A stretch of 54,009 nucleotides of DNA. Source: Parcubacteria group bacterium (GTDB lineage: Bacteria; Patescibacteriota; Patescibacteriia; Patescibacteriales; GWC2-42-12). Location of the stretch: contig JACPHD010000034.1 in the NCBI GenBank assembly GCA_016188785.1, forward strand, positions 1-54,009. The letters run 5' to 3'. The position numbers and the translations under genes are program-made. The notes beneath the pieces were generated by a model that was given only the letters and a program-made list of their open reading frames with translations, made no database searches and was not told where the DNA came from. Positions 46,010 through 54,009 of the stretch are shown piece by piece (the stretch's first letter is position 1; the number at the start of each line of letters is the position of its first letter).

Positions 46010-46065
46010 AAGAAAAAAACAGTGATAGTTGCTCTGGCAAATATCTCTGTTTTTTTCTTTCTTAA
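46010..46065 (+). terminator. Attenuator-like hairpin in the rRNA leader
   Basis: AAGAAAAAAACAG and CTGTTTTTTTCTT pair perfectly over 13 bp with a 25-nt loop that includes TTGCTCT. It resembles a terminator early in the leader, so antitermination or attenuation of rRNA transcription is possible. Confidence 0.55.
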
Positions 46066-46132
46066 AGATTGAAAACGCAACTTAACAATTTACGCTTTGT
46101 AAAATATACGCAGCAGCTTTTTACAAAGCATG

Positions 46133-46153
46133 TTTAGTGCTAACAGGCGCTAA
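46133..46153 (+). other. 16S processing stem, 5' strand
   Basis: TTTAGTGCTAACAGGCGCTAA pairs along 21 nt (one G-U) with 49119-49139 beyond the 16S 3' end: the expected RNase III substrate for excising 16S precursor. Confidence 0.85.
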
Positions 46154-46270
46154 TTCAAAATTAGAAGAATTAATTTCTTCAAATACACCCAGTGAAATTC
46201 GCTTTGCGACTATTTCACGGGGTAAATTTTTGCGTGTTTTTTAAAATACGTAACATGGAGCTACCATGGA

Positions 46271-46352
46271 AAAAACTTATTGAGAGTTTGACCCCGCCTC
46301 GGCGGGGTGAACGCTGACTCAACTTCGTTGAGAGCGTTCCTAACTTTCGCTA
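46271..46352 (+). repeat. Copy of the 16S 5' end with a replaced hairpin
   Basis: AAACTTATTGAGAGTTTGA at 46273-46291 and TGAACGCTG at 46308 repeat the first 40 nt of 16S. Between them the native TCCTGGCTCAGGA is replaced by CCCCGCCTCGGCGGGG. GAACGCT and AGCGTTC then close a second stem with CTCAAC/GTTGAG, and CCTA/TAGG a third. Confidence 0.85.
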
Positions 46353-46385
46353 GGATTCAAGTAAACCTAGTAAAATAAACTTATT

Positions 46386-46425
<40 letters not shown>

Positions 46426-46672
46426 TCTAAGGCATGCAAGTCGAACGCGCCTCCGCTCTTCACTGCGTGAAGAGCTTCGGACGCGCAAGCGCCCTATCAT
46501 AAAATAGGGAGCTTGCTCACCGTAGCTCATGCGTAGCGATGAGCGGAGGTGAGTGGCAAACGGGTGCGTAACACATTGGTAACTTACCCCGAAGTCATGA
46601 ATAAGCTTGCGAAAGCGGGTCTAATACATGATGGAAGCGAGGGGACTAAAGTCATTCTCGCTTAAAGCCTCG

Positions 46673-46688
46673 CCCCGCATCTGCGGGG
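46673..46688. repeat. Palindrome inserted in a 16S variable helix (5' domain)
   Basis: CCCCGCATCTGCGGGG caps the helix near E. coli positions 180-220; it is the reverse complement of the hairpin at 35541-35556. Confidence 0.75.
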
Positions 46689-47245
46689 CGGGGCGCTTCG
46701 GGAAAGGCCTATGGCCTATCAGCTAGTTGGCGAGGTAAAAGCTCACCAAGGCAACGACGGGTAGCGGGTGTGAGAGCATGGCCCGCCTCACTGGGACTGA
46801 GACACTGCCCAGACTCCTACGGGAGGCTGCAGTCAAGAATATTCCCCAATGGCCGAAAGGCTGAGGGAGCGACGCCGCGTGTATGAGGAAGCCCTTCGGG
46901 GTGTAAAATACTTTTAACCGGGACGAATCAATGACGGTACCGGTTGAATAAGGGGCTGCTAAACTCGTGCCAGCAGCAGCGGTAATACGAGTGCCCCAAG
47001 CGTTATCCGGATTTATTGGGCGTAAAGCGTACGTAGGCGGTTTATCGCATCTCCTGTTAAATCCCGAGGCTCAACCTCGGGGCCGCGGGAGAGATGGCTA
47101 AACTAGAGACCGGGAGAGGCAAGTGGAATTGCTGGTGTAGGGGTTAAATCCGTTAATATCAGCAAGAACACCTAATGTGAAGACAGCTTGCTAGAACGGT
47201 TCTGACGCTAAGGTACGAAAGCGTGGGGAGCGAATGGGATTAGAT

Positions 47246-48305
47246 AATCCATGCCCGCTCATAAAATATAGGTAAAAGGTGTCTCTTTTGACGGCGACGT
47301 CAAGATGAAAATTCAGCTATATCGGGGAAACTCCTGACAAAATGAGGTTTTACTGGCCTCGCCAGGACAATCCCGAGGGAAGTTCCATGGCCCGAAAAGC
47401 CATGATGAACCCCGTAGAGACTATGAAGTTGGTTTCGAGATAGAAGGCGCATTAATTAAAATATATGAATCATTATGTGCCTTTGTCGGATCGCGCCAAG
47501 GAAATTATTCTTGGCTCGCTTTTAGGGGATGGATCATTAAAGATCCATGATAAATACAAGAATGCCAGATTTTCTTTCAGGCATTCCGAGGCGCAAAAAG
47601 ATTATTTCTTCTGGAAAGTAAAAAATCTGAAAGAAATATCTTCAAAAAATTGCGTTTTTTGGCAGGAAAACAACGGCGGATTCAGTTCTAATAAAAAAAT
47701 CAGGTATCAAAGCTTGGCCTTGCCGTCGCTTACTGAAATTTATCAACTTACCCATAAGAAAAAAAAATTGCGTATCAGCCGGAGATGGCTGAACAAAATG
47801 ACAGCTCTGTCATTGGCTATTTGGTGGTTTGATGACGGTTCGCTGATTGCCAACGGCCGCAAAGGAGTATTTTGCACAGATGGTTTTGACGAAAAAAGCG
47901 TTAAAACTCTAGCGCAATACTTCTTGGTCGTTTGGAAAATCAAGACTAAAGTCGCGCCAATTACCAGAAAAAGGCGGGGGGAGCAGAAAAAATATTGGCG
48001 GCTCTGGCTGTATTCAACGGAAGAGCTGAAAAAATTTCTGCGGCTGATATTGCCGCAGACGCCGACGGCAAGCGCTTTGTCGAAAGTCGCGCTTCTCTAC
48101 AATGATCAACAACTTCAACAACGCTGGATATCTGAAATAGTTCAGTTAAGCCGTTTTTCTCTATCTGCCATTATGGCAGAATATGAGAAAAAACGCGCTA
48201 AATGGAGCCGTTACAGATAAAGATCTAGTCCGGACTTCATGGTAACATGAAGAATGGGACAGAAATGTTCCCATCAATTGCTAAAAGCAATTTGCAACAA
48301 ATTCA
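47246..48305 (+). mobile_element. Group I intron with homing endonuclease in 16S rRNA
   Basis: A 1,060-nt insertion at about E. coli position 793/794, in the 790 loop (GGATTAGAT|ACCCCAG). P1 pairs exon AGAT with intron TGTCT including a U-G at the splice site; the adjacent GGT can form P10 with exon ACC. Core elements resembling P/Q (ATCGGGGAAACTCC, ACAATCCCGAG), R (GTAGAGACTA) and S (AAGATCTAGTCC) are visible. The endonuclease ORF lies between R and S, i.e. in the P8 region. The predicted last intron base is A, where nearly all group I introns have G. Confidence 0.85.
47465..48220 (+). CDS. LAGLIDADG homing endonuclease
   Basis: A 251-residue monomeric enzyme with two LAGLIDADG helices: EIILGSLLGDGSL near residue 14 and SLAIWWFDDGSL near 116; the acidic Asp residues are at the catalytic positions. 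It should cut intronless 16S alleles and spread the intron. The stop codon overlaps the S core element of the intron (TAAAGATCTAGTCC), so coding and ribozyme sequences are interlocked. The start ATG follows AATTAAAATAT without a clear ribosome site. Confidence 0.95.
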   Translation: MNHYVPLSDRAKEIILGSLLGDGSLKIHDKYKNARFSFRHSEAQKDYFFWKVKNLKEISSKNCVFWQENNGGFSSNKKIRYQSLALPSLTEIYQLTHKKKKLRISRRWLNKMTALSLAIWWFDDGSLIANGRKGVFCTDGFDEKSVKTLAQYFLVVWKIKTKVAPITRKRRGEQKKYWRLWLYSTEELKKFLRLILPQTPTASALSKVALLYNDQQLQQRWISEIVQLSRFSLSAIMAEYEKKRAKWSRYR

Positions 48306-48441
48306 ACCCCAGTAGTCCACGCCGTAAACGATGGATGCTGAGCATTGGAAGTATCGACCCTTCCAGTGCTGTCTACCTAAGTTAACACCTTAAGCATCCC
48401 GCCTGGGGAGTACGAGCGCAAGCTTAAAACTCAAAGGAATA

Positions 48442-48485
<44 letters not shown>

Positions 48486-48567
48486 AGTAAGCGAGGAACC
48501 TCACCAAGGTTTGACATCCGGCTGCAGACCCCTGGAAACAGGGGAGCCTTCGAGGGTGCCGGACAGA

Positions 48568-48604
<37 letters not shown>

Positions 48605-48890
48605 ACCGTTAATTCGGGAAACGAGCGCAACCCCTATCCTATGTTTCATGTGTCATAGGAAACTGCCCGCTTTAAGTGGGAGGAAGGTGGGGATGACGTC
48701 AAATCAGCATGGTTCTTACACCTTGGGCGACACACGTGCTACAATGGGAAGCACAAAGGGACGCCAAAGCGTAAGCTGGAGCAAATCCTTTAAAACTTCT
48801 CTCAGTTCGGATTGAGGTCTGCAACTCGACCTCATGAAGCTGGAATCGCTAGTAAACGTGGATCAGCCACGCCACGGTAATGCCCGAAGG

Positions 48891-48906
48891 CCCCGCATTT
48901 GCGGGG
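48891..48906. repeat. Palindrome in 16S helix 44
   Basis: CCCCGCATTTGCGGGG near the tip of helix 44 (E. coli about 1450), same family as 46673-46688 and 35541-35556. Confidence 0.7.
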
Positions 48907-49007
48907 ACGAAGGTAGGATCGATGATAGGGACGAAGTCGTAACAAGGCATCCGTAGCGGAAGCTGTGGATGGATCACCTCCTTTCTAGGGAGAAAAAAGA
49001 ATTTTCG

Positions 49008-49110
49008 ATTGCAGATTTTCGATTTACGATTTCTGCGCGGAAATTCATAGTCGAAATTTTAGAGGCGAATTTGATTTTAAATCTAAAATCTAAAATCTAA
49101 AATCTAAAAT
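49008..49110. repeat. AT-rich spacer repeat, family B
   Basis: GATTTTCGATTTACGATTTC followed by tandem AAATCTAAAATCTAAAATC, just inside the 16S processing stem. Confidence 0.65.
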
Positions 49111-49118
49111 TACCAGAG

Positions 49119-49139
49119 TTAGCGCCTGTTAGTACTAAA
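49119..49139 (+). other. 16S processing stem, 3' strand
   Basis: TTAGCGCCTGTTAGTACTAAA; partner of 46133-46153. Confidence 0.85.
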
Positions 49140-49277
49140 TATAGTTAAAAGTTATAAAGTCCATAAAGTCAAAATTCAATGACTTTAAAGACTTTAGATT
49201 TTCAGACTTTTGACTCAAACAAATAGTTTATGGGCCTATTTGTCCCCCCTTCGCTAAAGCTACGGAGGATAAATTAT

Positions 49278-49322
49278 AAAAAGACTGGTCCTAAATTATT
49301 TGGCAACAGTCTTTTTATTTTT
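49278..49322 (+). terminator. Terminator between 16S and tRNA-Ile
   Basis: AAAAAGACTG pairs perfectly with CAGTCTTTTT, followed by ATTTTTT, and ends only 6-8 nt before tRNA-Ile. The 16S transcript probably ends here. Confidence 0.8.
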
Positions 49323-49327
49323 TACAA

Positions 49328-49401
<74 letters not shown>

Positions 49402-49407
49402 CCGAGT

Positions 49408-49478
49408 AAATTTTCGATTTATAATTTTCGATTTTAGATTTAAAATCTTCAATCGAAAATCTTAAATCTTAAATTTCT
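49408..49478. repeat. AT-rich spacer repeat, family B
   Basis: TTTTCGATTTATAATTTTCG and inverse between tRNA-Ile and tRNA-fMet. Confidence 0.65.
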
Positions 49479-49482
49479 ACAT

Positions 49483-49558
49483 CGCGGGGTAGAGCAGTTG
49501 GCAGCTCGCCAGGCCCATAACCTGGAGGCCGTGGGTTCGAATCCCACCCCCGCAACCA
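49483..49558 (+). tRNA. Initiator tRNA-fMet (CAU)
   Basis: C1 faces A72 (no pair) and A11 pairs with U24, the two marks of bacterial initiators; CCA is encoded. The anticodon stem is CCAGG/CCTGG, so the usual three G-C pairs are reduced to two plus A29-U41, and position 33 is C instead of the near-universal U (loop CCCATAA). Confidence 0.93.
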
Positions 49559-49560
49559 AG

Positions 49561-49630
49561 ATATTTGCGATTTATAATTTTCGATTTTAGATTTAATTCG
49601 CAAATCGAAAATCTGAAATCTGAAATTACC
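49561..49630. repeat. AT-rich spacer repeat, family B
   Basis: Same unit as the previous spacer, between tRNA-fMet and tRNA-Phe. Confidence 0.65.
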
Positions 49631-49632
49631 AC

Positions 49633-49707
49633 GCCTCGGTAGCTCAGTGGTAGAGCAAACGACTGAAAATCGTTGTGTCGTCAGTTCGATTCTGACCCGG
49701 GGCACCA
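49633..49707 (+). tRNA. tRNA-Phe (anticodon GAA)
   Basis: Acceptor GCCTCGG/CCGGGGC with one G-U, anticodon loop CTGAAAA, A73 and encoded CCA. Confidence 0.95.
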
Positions 49708-49708
49708 A

Positions 49709-49783
49709 GTTATTCTCGATTTTTGATTTGCGATTTTTAATTTTGTTATAAATCGCAAATCAAAAATCTTAAATCTGAAATAC
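49709..49783. repeat. AT-rich spacer repeat, family B
   Basis: Same unit again, between tRNA-Phe and tRNA-Pro. Confidence 0.65.
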
Positions 49784-49786
49784 CTT

Positions 49787-49860
49787 CGGGCTGTAGTATA
49801 ACGGTAGTACGTCTGCTTTGGGAGCAGATAGCCTGGGTTCAATTCCCAGCAGCCCGACCA
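49787..49860 (+). tRNA. tRNA-Pro (anticodon UGG)
   Basis: C1-G72 start typical of proline, acceptor CGGGCTG/CAGCCCG, anticodon loop TTTGGGA, A73 and encoded CCA. Confidence 0.95.
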
Positions 49861-49865
49861 AGTTA

Positions 49866-50391
49866 GACATTGAGGGTTTTCGGAAGAAGATACGCGCTCG
49901 CTTCGCTCGCGCGCTGGGGGGATTTTATTCTGATTTCCCGCCACAATCCGCCATTCGCCCGACCAATCCCAGCCGACTTTTTTGTCCAGCAGGCGGCGGT
50001 TCGTTCCAATTTTTTCCGCCAATGATTTTATTTCGTAAAAATCATTGGACAAAGCCAGTTTTTTAGCGTGGTGAGCGGTATTTATCCAATTCCGCAAAGG
50101 TTCAATCCAATTGTTTCCCCGCCTGCCTACGCCTATCCAGCTTTTGTTGAGATTAGACAAATTTTTATCGCTGACATTCTTATTCGCGTTATTCCACGGT
50201 AACGGCATTGGCGGGCAAGCCTTTCGCCCAAAATCACCCTGAGCCTGTCGAAGAGTTGTTTTTGTTTGTACTAATTCGTTCTTTTTAGCTAAATAAATAT
50301 CTTTCTCAACCGTGCCGTCTAAATAGCCGTTGACCAGTTTATCAAGTTTCGCTTCCGCTTGTTTTAACTTCTCTTCTAAAGACCGCGTCTT
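49866..50391 (-). pseudogene. C-terminal remnant of a serine site-specific recombinase
   Basis: An open minus-strand stretch encodes the coiled-coil (SLEEKLKQAEAKLDKLVNGY) and the tail of large serine recombinases (NWIEPLRNWINTAHHAKKLA, KSLAEKIGTNRRLLDKKVG). The catalytic N-terminal domain is missing, with a stop immediately upstream. Palindromes have been inserted in the coding sequence: CCTGAGCCTGTCGAAG near 50240, GGCGGGCAAGCCTTTCGCCC near 50212 and GCGCTCGCTTCGCTCGCGCGC near 49894. It abuts the 3' end of tRNA-Pro, a common integration site. No other gene is seen in 49861-50474. Confidence 0.7.
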
Positions 50392-50474
50392 TTATTTAAG
50401 TATAATCTATAAGCGTTTTTGAATCAATCCACATTTAGCTTGCCAAAATATTTAAAAATTTTTATACTAACCGC

Positions 50475-50972
50475 ATGCAACTGCCAATTAGAAAGCCGGG
50501 AAAATACACTCATCTAAAACCGGATCAGCATCTGACCCAGGCGAAATTTAATGAGCTTAAAAATAAGCTAGACCAGCTTAAATTTAACCGGCCGCGCGCG
50601 GCCGAAGAAGTTAAGCGGCTGGCCGAAATGGGAGATTTTTCGGAAAACGCGGCTTATCAAATCGCTAAAGGCCGCTTAAGAGGCCTGAACCAAAAAATTT
50701 TAGAAATAGCAGATCAGCTAAAACGTGCGGTTATCATTAAGCCGGTTAAAAATAGCCGGCTAGTTCAGTTAGGCAGTAGTGTAACCGTTATAACGGCTGG
50801 CCGAGAAAAAACTTACTTAATTTTGGGATCAGCAGAAACCGACCCTAAACGCGGCATTATTTCCAGCCACTCGCCCATCGGCTCGGCCCTAATCGGCAAA
50901 AAAATTAACGACCAGATAAAAATCAAGCTGGCCGACCAAGAAGTTGAATATAAAATTGTTAGAATAGAGTAG
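50475..50972 (+). CDS. greA: Transcription elongation factor GreA/GreB family
   Basis: 165 residues. The N-terminal coiled coil carries the acidic tip EMGDFSENAAY, matching GreA's catalytic D-x2-E loop that stimulates RNAP transcript cleavage. The C-terminal FKBP-like domain has YLILGSAETDPKRGIISSHSP and IGKKINDQI. It rescues backtracked RNA polymerase. The start is followed by an atypical 20-residue lead (PIRKPGKYTHLKPDQ), so the exact start is a little uncertain. Confidence 0.92.
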   Translation: MQLPIRKPGKYTHLKPDQHLTQAKFNELKNKLDQLKFNRPRAAEEVKRLAEMGDFSENAAYQIAKGRLRGLNQKILEIADQLKRAVIIKPVKNSRLVQLGSSVTVITAGREKTYLILGSAETDPKRGIISSHSPIGSALIGKKINDQIKIKLADQEVEYKIVRIE

Positions 50973-51028
50973 GGTTAATATAAATAAATGTTAACCCATA
51001 GCAGTTCTTTAAAAACCAGGGGTGCTTT

Positions 51029-51289
51029 GTGATTTTTGATCTGTGGAGCGCGGTAGGTATTTTTACGTCAGATTTCTTGTTTTGGTATTTGACAACGATT
51101 TATGTAAAACGTTGCAACGGAAATCTGATCATCCAGGTTATGATAGTAGCCGGAGCCATTAACGCCAGTGATTTTATGTCAAAATATTTGGCTCCCCGAT
51201 TTTTCAGCAATATCATAGTGGCCATTTTAGCCGCGGCCGCTGGTTCTGGTGTTGCTATGCTGTGGGACAAATGGAGGAAAAATAAATAA
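51029..51289 (+). CDS. Small membrane protein, unknown function
   Basis: 86 residues from a GTG start with AGGGGT just upstream. Three hydrophobic stretches (about 7-25, 34-50, 60-78) suggest two or three membrane spans, ending in a basic tail (DKWRKNK). It resembles small two-to-three-span proteins common in CPR that contain SDFxxxxYT...; function unknown. It has its own terminator. Confidence 0.65.
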   Translation: MIFDLWSAVGIFTSDFLFWYLTTIYVKRCNGNLIIQVMIVAGAINASDFMSKYLAPRFFSNIIVAILAAAAGSGVAMLWDKWRKNK

Positions 51290-51301
51290 AAAATGAACTT
51301 C

Positions 51302-51340
51302 AAGCCGCCAACTCGCGAGTCAGGCGGCTTTTCTCTTTTT
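51302..51340 (+). terminator. Terminator of the small membrane protein gene
   Basis: AAGCCGCC and GGCGGCTT form an 8-bp stem followed by TTCTCTTTTT. Confidence 0.85.
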
Positions 51341-51350
51341 AAAATGCTCT

Positions 51351-51388
51351 TAATAAAAATAGCCCCCACCACATTGTGGTAGGGGGCT
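51351..51388 (-). terminator. Terminator of the 51.4-kb hypothetical gene
   Basis: On the minus strand AGCCCCCTACCAC and GTGGTGGGGGCT pair and run into ATTTTTATT. A second perfect stem, CCGAGATTATC/GATAATCTCGG, precedes it at 51396-51421. Confidence 0.75.
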
Positions 51389-51436
51389 GGGTGGCCGAGA
51401 TTATCCGGAGATAATCTCGGAAAATTAGTAAAAATC

Positions 51437-51934
51437 CTACCAATTGCGCTTTTCATGACGCAAGGCAGCGATGCGAAGCTCCAGGCTGTCGCGCGGACGA
51501 ATAAATCGTGCGCCGTTACTAAAGGCGTAGTCAAGCCAACAAAAGCGGATTGTCCATTCTCCTCCGCGCCAGATTAAGCAAGCCACAACGCGGCTATGGC
51601 TACCGGTGATTAAAATAGTACGCGGCATAATATAATAATTATCGCGCGAATCAACCGGAAAAATTTTTTTCCATTCCTCTTCCCGCTTCTCCTTTAACTT
51701 TAATAACGCGGCGGCCAGTCCAAGACTGCCATAAGCTTTACATGCTCCCGCTCGCCTGAGCATAAAGTCACCGTCTATATACTCGTCGGATTGAATCGGG
51801 CAAAAAGAAAAATCCAGGTTAAAAAAACTAATTTCGCCTTCCGGGTCGTCGCTCTCTACCTCCCAACCCTCGGGAATGAGATCTGAATCAATGGCGCGAA
51901 CTGGCGTAATTATACTTCGCAGTTCCAGCTTCAT
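51437..51934 (-). CDS. Hypothetical protein, 165 residues
   Basis: Soluble protein without a recognised family. It has a beta-rich, acidic N-terminus (EGWEVESDDPEGEIS), a helix with LGLAAALLKLKEKREEEWKK and RTILITGSHSRVVACLIWRGG. A strong ribosome-binding site (GGGGGA) precedes the ATG, supporting real expression. It has its own terminators. The general look is of a small cytosolic CPR protein; function not inferred. Confidence 0.7.
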   Translation of the reverse strand: MKLELRSIITPVRAIDSDLIPEGWEVESDDPEGEISFFNLDFSFCPIQSDEYIDGDFMLRRAGACKAYGSLGLAAALLKLKEKREEEWKKIFPVDSRDNYYIMPRTILITGSHSRVVACLIWRGGEWTIRFCWLDYAFSNGARFIRPRDSLELRIAALRHEKRNW

Positions 51935-52098
51935 AATAATTTCCCCCTTTTTAAATTGAAAGGTTCGCTATAGGCGCCAGAATCGGCGTTATTAAAAACT
52001 TTACAACTGGACAAAAAAATAGTAAAATTAAAATATAAAAATATACGAAAATATTAAAAAATGTTATAAATGTATTAATTATTGTTTATGCTAATTGA

Positions 52099-52203
52099 CT
52101 TAGTAAATAATGGCAAATTTTCGTGCGAGGACTGTTTGAGCCCCCCACCAAAATTTGGTGGGGGGCGAGTTCCGCAGTAGAAAATTTGCCATTATTTACT
52201 AAG
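52099..52203. repeat. Site-specific-arm palindromic element, copy 2
   Basis: Perfect 24-bp arms (52099-52122 and 52180-52203) around a core with GCGAGGACTGTTTGAG, a nested CCCCCCACC...GGTGGGGGG hairpin and CGAGTTCCGCAG. Core ends match copy 1 at 11099-11199; the outer arms do not. Confidence 0.85.
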
Positions 52204-52230
52204 CCGTAGATGTTTTATAACCATAAATAC

Positions 52231-52878
52231 ATGAAAAAAATATCTGACGCTTTAAAAGAAATTATTAGCAACAACCAATTTTTAGCCTACGGCCTGTCTA
52301 ATAAACTCTTAAACTTAACCCAACTGGCCAAATATCTAAAACCATTAATTGAAACGCGGACTAAAAAAAATTTAAAAAGCGCCAGCGCGCTTTTAATGAT
52401 GTTGTCCCGACTGCAAAAAGAGTATGGCAAAAAAATTAAAGCGATTAATAAATTCAAAATTAATAATATTACTGCCTATTCCGGCTTATCTATCTATACT
52501 TACTCAAAAAATTATTCTTTTTTAGCCCAGTTAAGCAAGCTCTACGCCGCGCTTGAGCATTATAACAGCTATATAACCCTGGGCCAGGGCACGGACGAAA
52601 TCACGCTAATCATTAACGAGGCCGGCTCTAATGAACTAAAAAAATATATTAAAGACCAACCTAAACATTTTAGTAAAAATATTTCGGCTTTAAGCGTTAA
52701 ATTTTCTGAAAAATATCATCATGAATCAGGCTTGCTTTATTATTTAATCCAGGAAGTGGCCTTGCAAGGCATAAATATAAAAGAAATCGCCTCAACTTAC
52801 ACCGAGATTATTTTTTATGTTGATGAAAAAGATTTTAAATTGCTTTTTGACACTGTTTACAACCGTTTTGCCGGTTAA
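52231..52878 (+). CDS. ACT-domain protein
   Basis: About 215 residues from the ATG at 52231 (MKKISDALKEII). The N-terminal 75 residues are helical, possibly HTH-like (FLAYGLSNKLLNLTQLAKYL). Two ACT-type beta-alpha-beta units follow, the second with ESGLLYYLIQEVALQGINI and EIIFYVDEKDFKLLFD as in aspartate kinase regulatory domains. No kinase domain is present. It may bind an amino acid and act as a regulator. It is convergent with the Phd-nuclease gene and overlaps it by 4 nt. Confidence 0.75.
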   Translation: MKKISDALKEIISNNQFLAYGLSNKLLNLTQLAKYLKPLIETRTKKNLKSASALLMMLSRLQKEYGKKIKAINKFKINNITAYSGLSIYTYSKNYSFLAQLSKLYAALEHYNSYITLGQGTDEITLIINEAGSNELKKYIKDQPKHFSKNISALSVKFSEKYHHESGLLYYLIQEVALQGINIKEIASTYTEIIFYVDEKDFKLLFDTVYNRFAG

Positions 52879-53594
52879 AATTTTGGAATCAGCTTGGCGC
52901 TGGGACGGCCGGCTTTTTTCCAGGCTGAAAAAGTATTAAATTTAGAGTAGTCAATGGTCATAATTTTTTCCTGTTCCACATTATTTTTATACTGGCGGGA
53001 ATAGAAAATTATAAATTCTGGTTTTTTTGACCAGGACAAAGCCGCGGCCAAGGCGAATAAGTCGGCGATAACTCTATCCGCGTTCTCTTCATAATCGGCA
53101 AAAGCGCCAACCTCAAAAATCAGGCGCACATTGCCCCGGCCGTCATTCACGATAATATCAGCTTCAATATAACGTTTGCTGTCTTCGCCGCCGACTTTTA
53201 CATATCGCCCGAACTCAATCAGCTGCAGCTGGTATTTATACTTTTCAATAAGATTGACGAATAATCGCGCTTTAATTAAACCTTCTTCTTTATATCTTGA
53301 ATTTTGACCATTGCCGGATAAATAGACCACCCTTGATTCATCGCGGATAATAAAAACTTTGGGTAAAATTTCGTTTCTTTGCGCCGCGTAGCTGTCATAA
53401 TTTTTATCAGCCAGAGTATAGCCATTATTTTTACTCGCTGACAGCGCTTCAAATTTTTCCGCCGAAACTATCACTACTGTCGGCTTGCCCCGTTCGGTTA
53501 AAGTGTAATAAATATTAAATTTTCGCACTTCTTCAGCAATGCTAAAAATTTTTTTTCTGGCCTCGGTAATCGGCAAAACATTTTTTATTGTCAT
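52875..53594 (-). CDS. Phd/YefM antitoxin domain fused to a PD-(D/E)xK-like domain
   Basis: 239 residues. The first 50 match Phd/YefM antitoxin DNA-binding domains (LPITEARKKIFSIAEEVR, TERGKPTVVIVSAEKFE). The rest resembles the HsdR N-terminal-type nuclease fold: RYIEADIIVNDGRGN then LIFEVGAFADYEEN. The ExK motif reads E-V-G, so the catalytic lysine is missing or shifted. It may be an autoregulated protein with a degenerate or modified nuclease. A long inverted repeat lies just upstream of its start. Confidence 0.7.
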   Translation of the reverse strand: MTIKNVLPITEARKKIFSIAEEVRKFNIYYTLTERGKPTVVIVSAEKFEALSASKNNGYTLADKNYDSYAAQRNEILPKVFIIRDESRVVYLSGNGQNSRYKEEGLIKARLFVNLIEKYKYQLQLIEFGRYVKVGGEDSKRYIEADIIVNDGRGNVRLIFEVGAFADYEENADRVIADLFALAAALSWSKKPEFIIFYSRQYKNNVEQEKIMTIDYSKFNTFSAWKKAGRPSAKLIPKF

Positions 53595-53608
53595 GTTTTT
53601 GCGAGTGT

Positions 53609-53704
53609 AGCACTAACTTGATTCTGACTGCTTCCATCAGATGGATTTGCTCTAAATAAGATTTAAAAATAGTAGTATTTAGTGGACAGAATCAAGTTAG
53701 TGCT
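53609..53704. repeat. 18-bp inverted repeat upstream of the Phd-nuclease gene
   Basis: AGCACTAACTTGATTCTG and CAGAATCAAGTTAGTGCT are perfect inverses separated by 60 nt that include a small CCATC/GATGG hairpin. It could be an operator for the Phd domain or a palindromic insertion. Confidence 0.75.
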
Positions 53705-53748
53705 GCATGAGTTAATAATTATATGTACATTATACCGTACATATAATT

Positions 53749-54009
53749 TTAGAGCAACCCCTCGCATTTAAGGCTTAAAAACGAGTTTTCCGACACGATT
53801 ACATGATCAATTATTTCAATGCCTAATATTTTACCGGCTTCCAAGAGCCGCTTAGTCACCGCCAAGTCGTCATCCGAGGGTTTAATATCGCCGGACGGAT
53901 GATTATGAGCGATAAGAATTTGCGCCGCGGTCTGGTAGATGGCCGGCTCAAAAACTTCGCGCGGATGCACTAAATTGGCATTAAGAGTTCCGACTGAAAT
54001 AACCTCCCG
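53749..54009 (-). CDS. radC: RadC/JAB-domain protein (partial, continues past the window)
   Basis: The C-terminal 86 residues of a MPN/JAB metalloprotease-fold protein of the RadC family. The signature HNHPSGDIKPSDDD and the end IDHVIVSENSFLSLKCEGLL are clear. The frame is open to the window edge, with REVISVGTLNANLVHPREVF upstream, so the track start at a GTG is artificial. RadC-like proteins are linked to DNA repair or mobile elements without a proven reaction. Confidence 0.9.
   Translation of the reverse strand, partial: REVISVGTLNANLVHPREVFEPAIYQTAAQILIAHNHPSGDIKPSDDDLAVTKRLLEAGKILGIEIIDHVIVSENSFLSLKCEGLL

Follow-up and report, generated by a model that had tools for sequence, protein, structure and literature searches.

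A copy of the 16S rRNA start in the rRNA leader of a Parcubacteria group bacterium and its recurrence among relatives

Why should the leader of a 16S rRNA gene carry a second copy of the start of that same gene? The question is raised by the contig presented here, a stretch of 54,009 nucleotides that was analysed as a whole and is called the window below. A first-pass annotation of the window had described a repeat of the beginning of 16S upstream of the true start, in which the natural hairpin was replaced by a stronger one and further hairpins followed. It offered three kinds of explanation, namely a leftover of duplication, a decoy that competes during folding of the 5' domain, or a processing or antitermination signal.

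The copied 16S start in the leader

The repeat is real. The Rfam model places the 16S start at 46380. The copy occupies 46273-46316, and the offset between the two copies is 104 nt. By E. coli numbering, which is used throughout, positions -2 to 16 and 30-38 are copied and positions 17-29 are replaced by the palindrome CCCCGCCTCGGCGGGG. When the leader was aligned locally to the genome's own -12..+45 the score was 28, and 0 of 500 first-order shuffles scored as high. The exchange of the natural hairpin for CCCCGCC/GGCGGGG is seen at 46292-46307, or 46291-46308 with the extended pair, and the additional hairpins 3' of the copy are predicted at 46309-46339 and about 46349-46371. The features of the locus, with pairing probabilities (P) where predicted, are as follows.

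46114-46157, + strand: leader strand of the leader-trailer processing stem (partner 49115-49154; duplex of -48.3 kcal/mol)
46253-46269, + strand: upstream module hairpin ACATGG-AGCTA-CCATGG, 5' of the A-tract, with a counterpart in G001 and G006
46273-46291, + strand: copy of the 16S 5' boundary, AAACTTATTGAGAGTTTGA, positions -2 to 16, 19/19 identical to 46377-46395
46282-46348, + strand: outer stem P1, GAGAGUU (46282-46288) with AACUUUC (46342-46348), closing a three-way junction in the MFE
46291-46308, + strand: palindrome ACCCCGCCTCGGCGGGGT, standing where the natural UCCUGGCUCAGGA hairpin would be (P 0.95-1.0)
46308-46316, + strand: TGAACGCTG, copy of 16S positions 30-38, 9/9 identical to the true 16S
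46309-46339, + strand: hairpin GAACGCU...AGCGUUC, which locks the copy's GAACGCU (P 0.83-1.0)
46349-46371, + strand: module hairpin GCTAGG...CCTAGT, directly 5' of the true boundary (P 0.8-0.9), with similar hairpins in many leaders of the order
46377-46393, + strand: h1'-type hairpin AAACUU(AUUGA)GAGUUU across the true 16S start (P about 0.5)
46380-48984, + strand: 16S rRNA gene with an intron (Rfam RF00177, 1171.8 bits)

The genome that holds the window comprises 1.0 Mb in 45 contigs, and the exact pattern of the window's palindrome has a single instance in it. Its small size, the intron in 16S and the type of leader point to Patescibacteria. The first-pass annotation had named absence from all relatives, together with presence only near an assembly breakpoint, as grounds for dismissing the repeat. 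Instead, the copy lies mid-contig, 7.6 kb from the nearer end of the 54-kb contig, and counterparts occur in other assemblies, so it is not a breakpoint artefact.

Several observations concern the surroundings of the copy. The 16S intron, of roughly 0.8-1.1 kb, holds a LAGLIDADG endonuclease ORF (47465-48220, + strand; PF03161, E 1.2e-34). Downstream of 16S lie tRNA-Ile, -Met, -Phe and -Pro, spaced by similar AT-rich dyads; the remaining 5 kb (48985-54009) contains no 23S, and the rRNA genes of this genome look unlinked. Early in the leader, at 46011-46060, is a dyad that resembles a terminator or attenuator, AAAAAAACAG...CTGTTTTTTT; many relatives have a comparable one.

Recurrence among relatives and the edges of the repeat

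The survey of relatives covered 143 distinct leaders (75 from the order, 68 from elsewhere in the class), and each octamer of a genome's own pre-16S was counted in its own leader. The octamer GAGAGTTT occurred in 11 of the 143 against 0.87 expected, forming a sharp single peak with a shoulder from -4 to +2. A small second peak stood at GATCCTGG (4 against 0.1 expected), and no other 16S octamer showed comparable enrichment in the 143 leaders. One of the 11, at -276 in G312, was taken as probably a chance match, and an apparent second 16S start in G047, which abuts a run of N and is likely a scaffolding effect, was set aside. Further carriers came from searches of 379 genomes of the phylum and 362 of the class, and from relatives of carriers. 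The check proposed in the first-pass annotation, to look for the mimic in the rRNA leaders of relatives, has returned matches in 18 families, yet none in G001, the congener with a 16S. The families belong to at least two classes, three of them (f145, f183 and f226) lying outside the class of the window. The leader mimic is confirmed as real and recurrent. Viral contigs gave 92 matches to the pattern, of which 0 adjoined a 16S; phage records gave no match, and we met no description of a leader copy of this kind in the literature that we searched.

Presence is patchy. Besides G001, copies are missing from G018 (same genus as G046) and from G239 and G218 (same genus as G160), and most leaders of the order are likewise without one. 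The element persists across genera in families f50 and f183, and f1 and f32 have hairpins that stay paired despite changes on both strands, which hints at a function in some lineages. Within f50, two genera (L314 of G249 and L247 of G177) have in common an 18-nt copy, GAGAGTTTGATCCTGGCT, with a palindrome in the loop and a conserved continuation. The leader of G324 (L317) holds two tandem units of an insert of about 80 nt, placed between its copy and the true start of 16S.

The edges of the repeat cluster. Among 19 copies measured, the left edge of identity lay at -2 to +2 in 11. The right edge lay at U14 in 14 and at 16 in the two copies of the window's type, this right-edge statistic being partly ascertained because the octamer searches force the edge to at least 14; many of the 19 also have one insert type in common, and some of these were retrieved with a pattern in which the edge is fixed. 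Copies match the 16S boundary of their own host; for example, the two copies in G298 share TTTTACTAAGAGTTT, and the two in G212 share CTTCAATGAGAGTTT. An empty site was found within a single genus, where G160 has a 54-nt insert and a 17-nt direct repeat (a second ATTTTATTTGAGAGTTT) that G239 and G218 are without, the flanks matching closely. Such a difference is expected from an insertion with target duplication. It is equally expected if recombination between the direct repeats had precisely removed the element, and hence the polarity of insertion is unproven by this comparison. The window and its congener G001 are too divergent at the locus to align cleanly and give an empty site for the window itself.

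The explanation that we favour, with roughly even confidence, is that the mimic is an old 16S start left behind by an insertion or duplication at the 16S 5' terminus. Such an event would make a direct repeat of roughly positions 1-16 (with 30-38), whose downstream copy would restore a complete 16S while the upstream copy would be stranded in the leader, inside an RNase III-type stem. A GC-rich palindrome and additional hairpins would have replaced or interrupted what once followed the stranded copy. Once transcribed, the copy would fold on itself, as the predicted three-way junction at 46282-46348, and this self-folding would prevent its strands that resemble 16S from disturbing the real 5' domain. 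The earlier suggestion of a leftover of duplication holds up in general, given the empty site in another genus and the copies that track their hosts; for the window's own copy we infer an origin of the kind seen in G160. The palindrome and the duplication are presumably causally linked, and the element is probably tolerated rather than needed.

When an integrative element enters a tRNA gene at its att site, the direct repeat of the target that results restores a complete gene. The likeness to the present case is this direct repeat that leaves a complete gene, and the difference is that the insert here is very small and gene-less (54 nt in G160) and sits at the 16S 5' end.

The inserts themselves are palindromic. 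In 7 of 12 copies no more than 5 nt separate the octamer from the start of a GC palindrome, where chance would give about 0.01 per copy. One insert type, CCCCGCCTCGGCGGGG after position 16, is common to the window and G043, and the same 16 nt of palindrome stand in both the leader copy and the 23S of G043. A second type consists of GAGAGUUU, two 6-bp hairpins with 3-nt loops and then GAUCC; it is present in the order, in the remainder of the class and, outside it, in a single genome that belongs to a different class, and G122 has a variant. All ten examples read lie 67-183 nt upstream of a 16S start, and the class search for this type set no requirement of 16S proximity. Nine distinct sequences of the second type show 100% pairing, and five of the pairs differ on both sides. 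We rejected this covariation as proof of function because independently inserted dispersed palindromes of differing sequence would give an equal pattern; palindromes of the same make exist elsewhere in these genomes, and the two-sided changes may therefore mean no more than that several members of one repeat family are being compared.

Palindromes of the types seen in the inserts also stand at other sites of these genomes, some within apparent coding stretches and one in a 23S. The exact pattern CCCCGCCNNGGCGGGG is found once in G000, as the window's copy, and three times in G043; double palindromes TCMGCCNNNGGCKGA number 19 in G046, 15 in G027, 11 in G212 and 1 in G000. Dispersed double palindromes (TCMGCCNNNGGCKGA twice; L276-L283), some with short flanking direct repeats, were noted in several genomes, and this repeat family may be mobile. 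REP-like elements and Rickettsia palindromic elements are similar in that GC palindromes of the same type recur at other genome sites, including apparent coding stretches. They differ in that the palindromes here come directly after 16S position 14 or 16, within the copied 16S start.

Predicted folding, processing and the helical switch

The stretch 46270-46360 folds with a z of -6.1 against shuffles, into a three-way junction in which the copy's GAGAGUU pairs with AACUUUC around the palindrome and the GAACGCU hairpin. When the leader was folded together with the 16S 5' domain as far as 46984, both the palindrome and GAACGCU stayed locked in local pairs (P about 0.97-1.0), and the antisense AACUUUC is divided between the copy (P 0.34) and the true 16S start (P 0.33). 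Deletion of the element in silico moved the P of h1' from 0.50 to 0.57. Leaders of carriers are only somewhat more structured than others (mean z -3.1 versus -2.2), and we rejected leader structure as such as the mark of carriers.

These folds bear directly on the decoy, by which the copy would compete with the true 5' domain for the partners of h3 or of the central pseudoknot. The copy does carry the h1 strand and, in the window, an h3-type strand, GAACGCUG. However, local pairing holds its GAACGCU at 0.97, the true start has an h3-type pairing of 0.46 with the element and 0.43 without it, and most other copies end or are interrupted before the pseudoknot strand. At equilibrium the decoy claim is unsupported, the pairing of the true 5' end being barely altered by the deletion, and we regard such a role as highly improbable.

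The leader-trailer stem (46114-46157 with 49115-49154) lies farther out than the copy, which places the copy inside an RNase III-type domain. As with the pre-16S leader-trailer helix described previously (PMC10250234), the window's strong stem encloses the element; the mimic differs in lying inside the stem and forming no part of it. The core of the stem, TTTAGTGCTAACAGGCGCTAA, recurs in leaders of the order. It would be logical to ask whether the copy is a duplicate processing site, which the 16S 5'-end nuclease would cut or bind first, as a preliminary cut in stepwise trimming. The copied block begins about at the mature 5' end and spans both sides of the probable end, it sits between the leader-trailer stem and the 16S start, and it keeps a hairpin 3' of its GAGAGUUU as pre-16S does (AUCCUG/CAGGAU, P 0.9). 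Most copies, however, begin at the presumed cut and not upstream of it, and the sporadic presence of the element, with most leaders of the order doing without it, speaks against an essential processing signal. We judge a duplicate processing site very unlikely, and for an antitermination signal we found no evidence.

A further possibility concerns the h1'/h1 switch at the 5' end of the E. coli 17S pre-rRNA, in which, at the precursor stage, residues 7-16 of 16S are base-paired to a strand of the leader (Dammel and Noller 1993; PMC3996153). Similar to this system, the window and most leaders of the order have an AAACUU/GAGUUU-type hairpin; in the known system the leader holds no additional 16S start. 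Stems of the h1' type of at least 6 bp occur in 76% of the 75 leaders of the order, against 39% when shuffled. The window's AAACUU/GAGUUU, with P about 0.5, concerns the true start and not the mimic. RbfA, a factor tied to the switch, is encoded in 106 of 111 genomes of the order and in every genome at least 90% complete; it is near-universal and therefore shows no link with carriage of the copy. Loss of RbfA as a correlate of carriage was rejected, as RbfA does not separate carriers.

In such a system the copy could act as a competitor, its second GAGAGUUU strand vying with the true start for the leader antisense. With the antisense on the copy (P1), the true start would be free for mature h1; with the antisense on the true start (h1'), the copy would pair with 16S GGCUC. 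Total pairing is nearly conserved between the two states, so the change from h1' to h1 would be cheap. The h1' model is established in E. coli (PMC3996153), and the window's AACUUUC is predicted to pair about equally with either partner. Constrained folds of G706, G668, G795, G607 and G767 (f183, another class), G116 and two Helicobacter put the states mostly 0.2-6 kcal/mol apart with strand exchange, and 8.2 in G767. Of the six f183 members with a leader read, five keep the order sense-antisense-sense. Against this, the antisense of the window is no stronger than in shuffled intervals (z -0.07), most hairpin-interrupted copies are without significant antisense, and the element is missing from the congener G001. 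We consider the competitor reading unlikely.

Antisense in the leader is above chance in G706, G668 and G249 and borderline in others, and, taken together, carriers have somewhat more of it than the remaining leaders (mean z -0.99 versus -0.41); beyond position -14 leader antisense to the 16S start shows no general enrichment. The f183 hairpin has a 5' strand that copies the 16S start and a 3' strand antisense to it, and adjoins the true start in 5 of 6 cases. Leaders of this family (L297 and L321-L324, from G706, G767, G668, G607 and G795) have one or two sense-antisense hairpins beside an extended h1' hairpin of up to 20 bp, and in several of them the alternative folds are nearly isoenergetic. 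Two Helicobacter leaders (L078, 7100-7290, and L079), found by a genome-wide pattern, have tandem copies, TTGGAGAGTTTG...CAAACTCCCCAA, 5' of 16S, a parallel sense-antisense array in another phylum. As modelled, the sense-antisense-sense order of f183 and the two Helicobacter could toggle the h1'/h1 switch. A helical-switch role is plausible on these folds in f183 and Helicobacter, with the window's antisense at shuffle level.

Scope and meaning of the stranded start

A broader account can be put forward tentatively, as a possibility that we hold to be rather improbable. It would have a tiny palindromic element, spread through the phylum, insert repeatedly at one fixed place, the 16S start (mostly at U14|G15), which is the most conserved part of a gene present as a single copy, with a duplication of ~12-17 nt regenerating 16S each time; in some lineages the stranded start would since have been recruited as a strand-exchange partner of the helical switch.

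Outside a handful of model bacteria, 16S leaders have seldom been examined. That a copy of the 16S start recurs in the pre-rRNA of many uncultured families bears on how the rRNA operon tolerates insertions at its most constrained end, and on how maturation defines 16S 5' ends. There is also a practical side, as primers and annotation keyed to AGAGTTTGA can match the leader of carrier genomes. Where matching antisense is present, the copy bears on the h1'/h1 switch as well, a matter that is testable by simple mutations.
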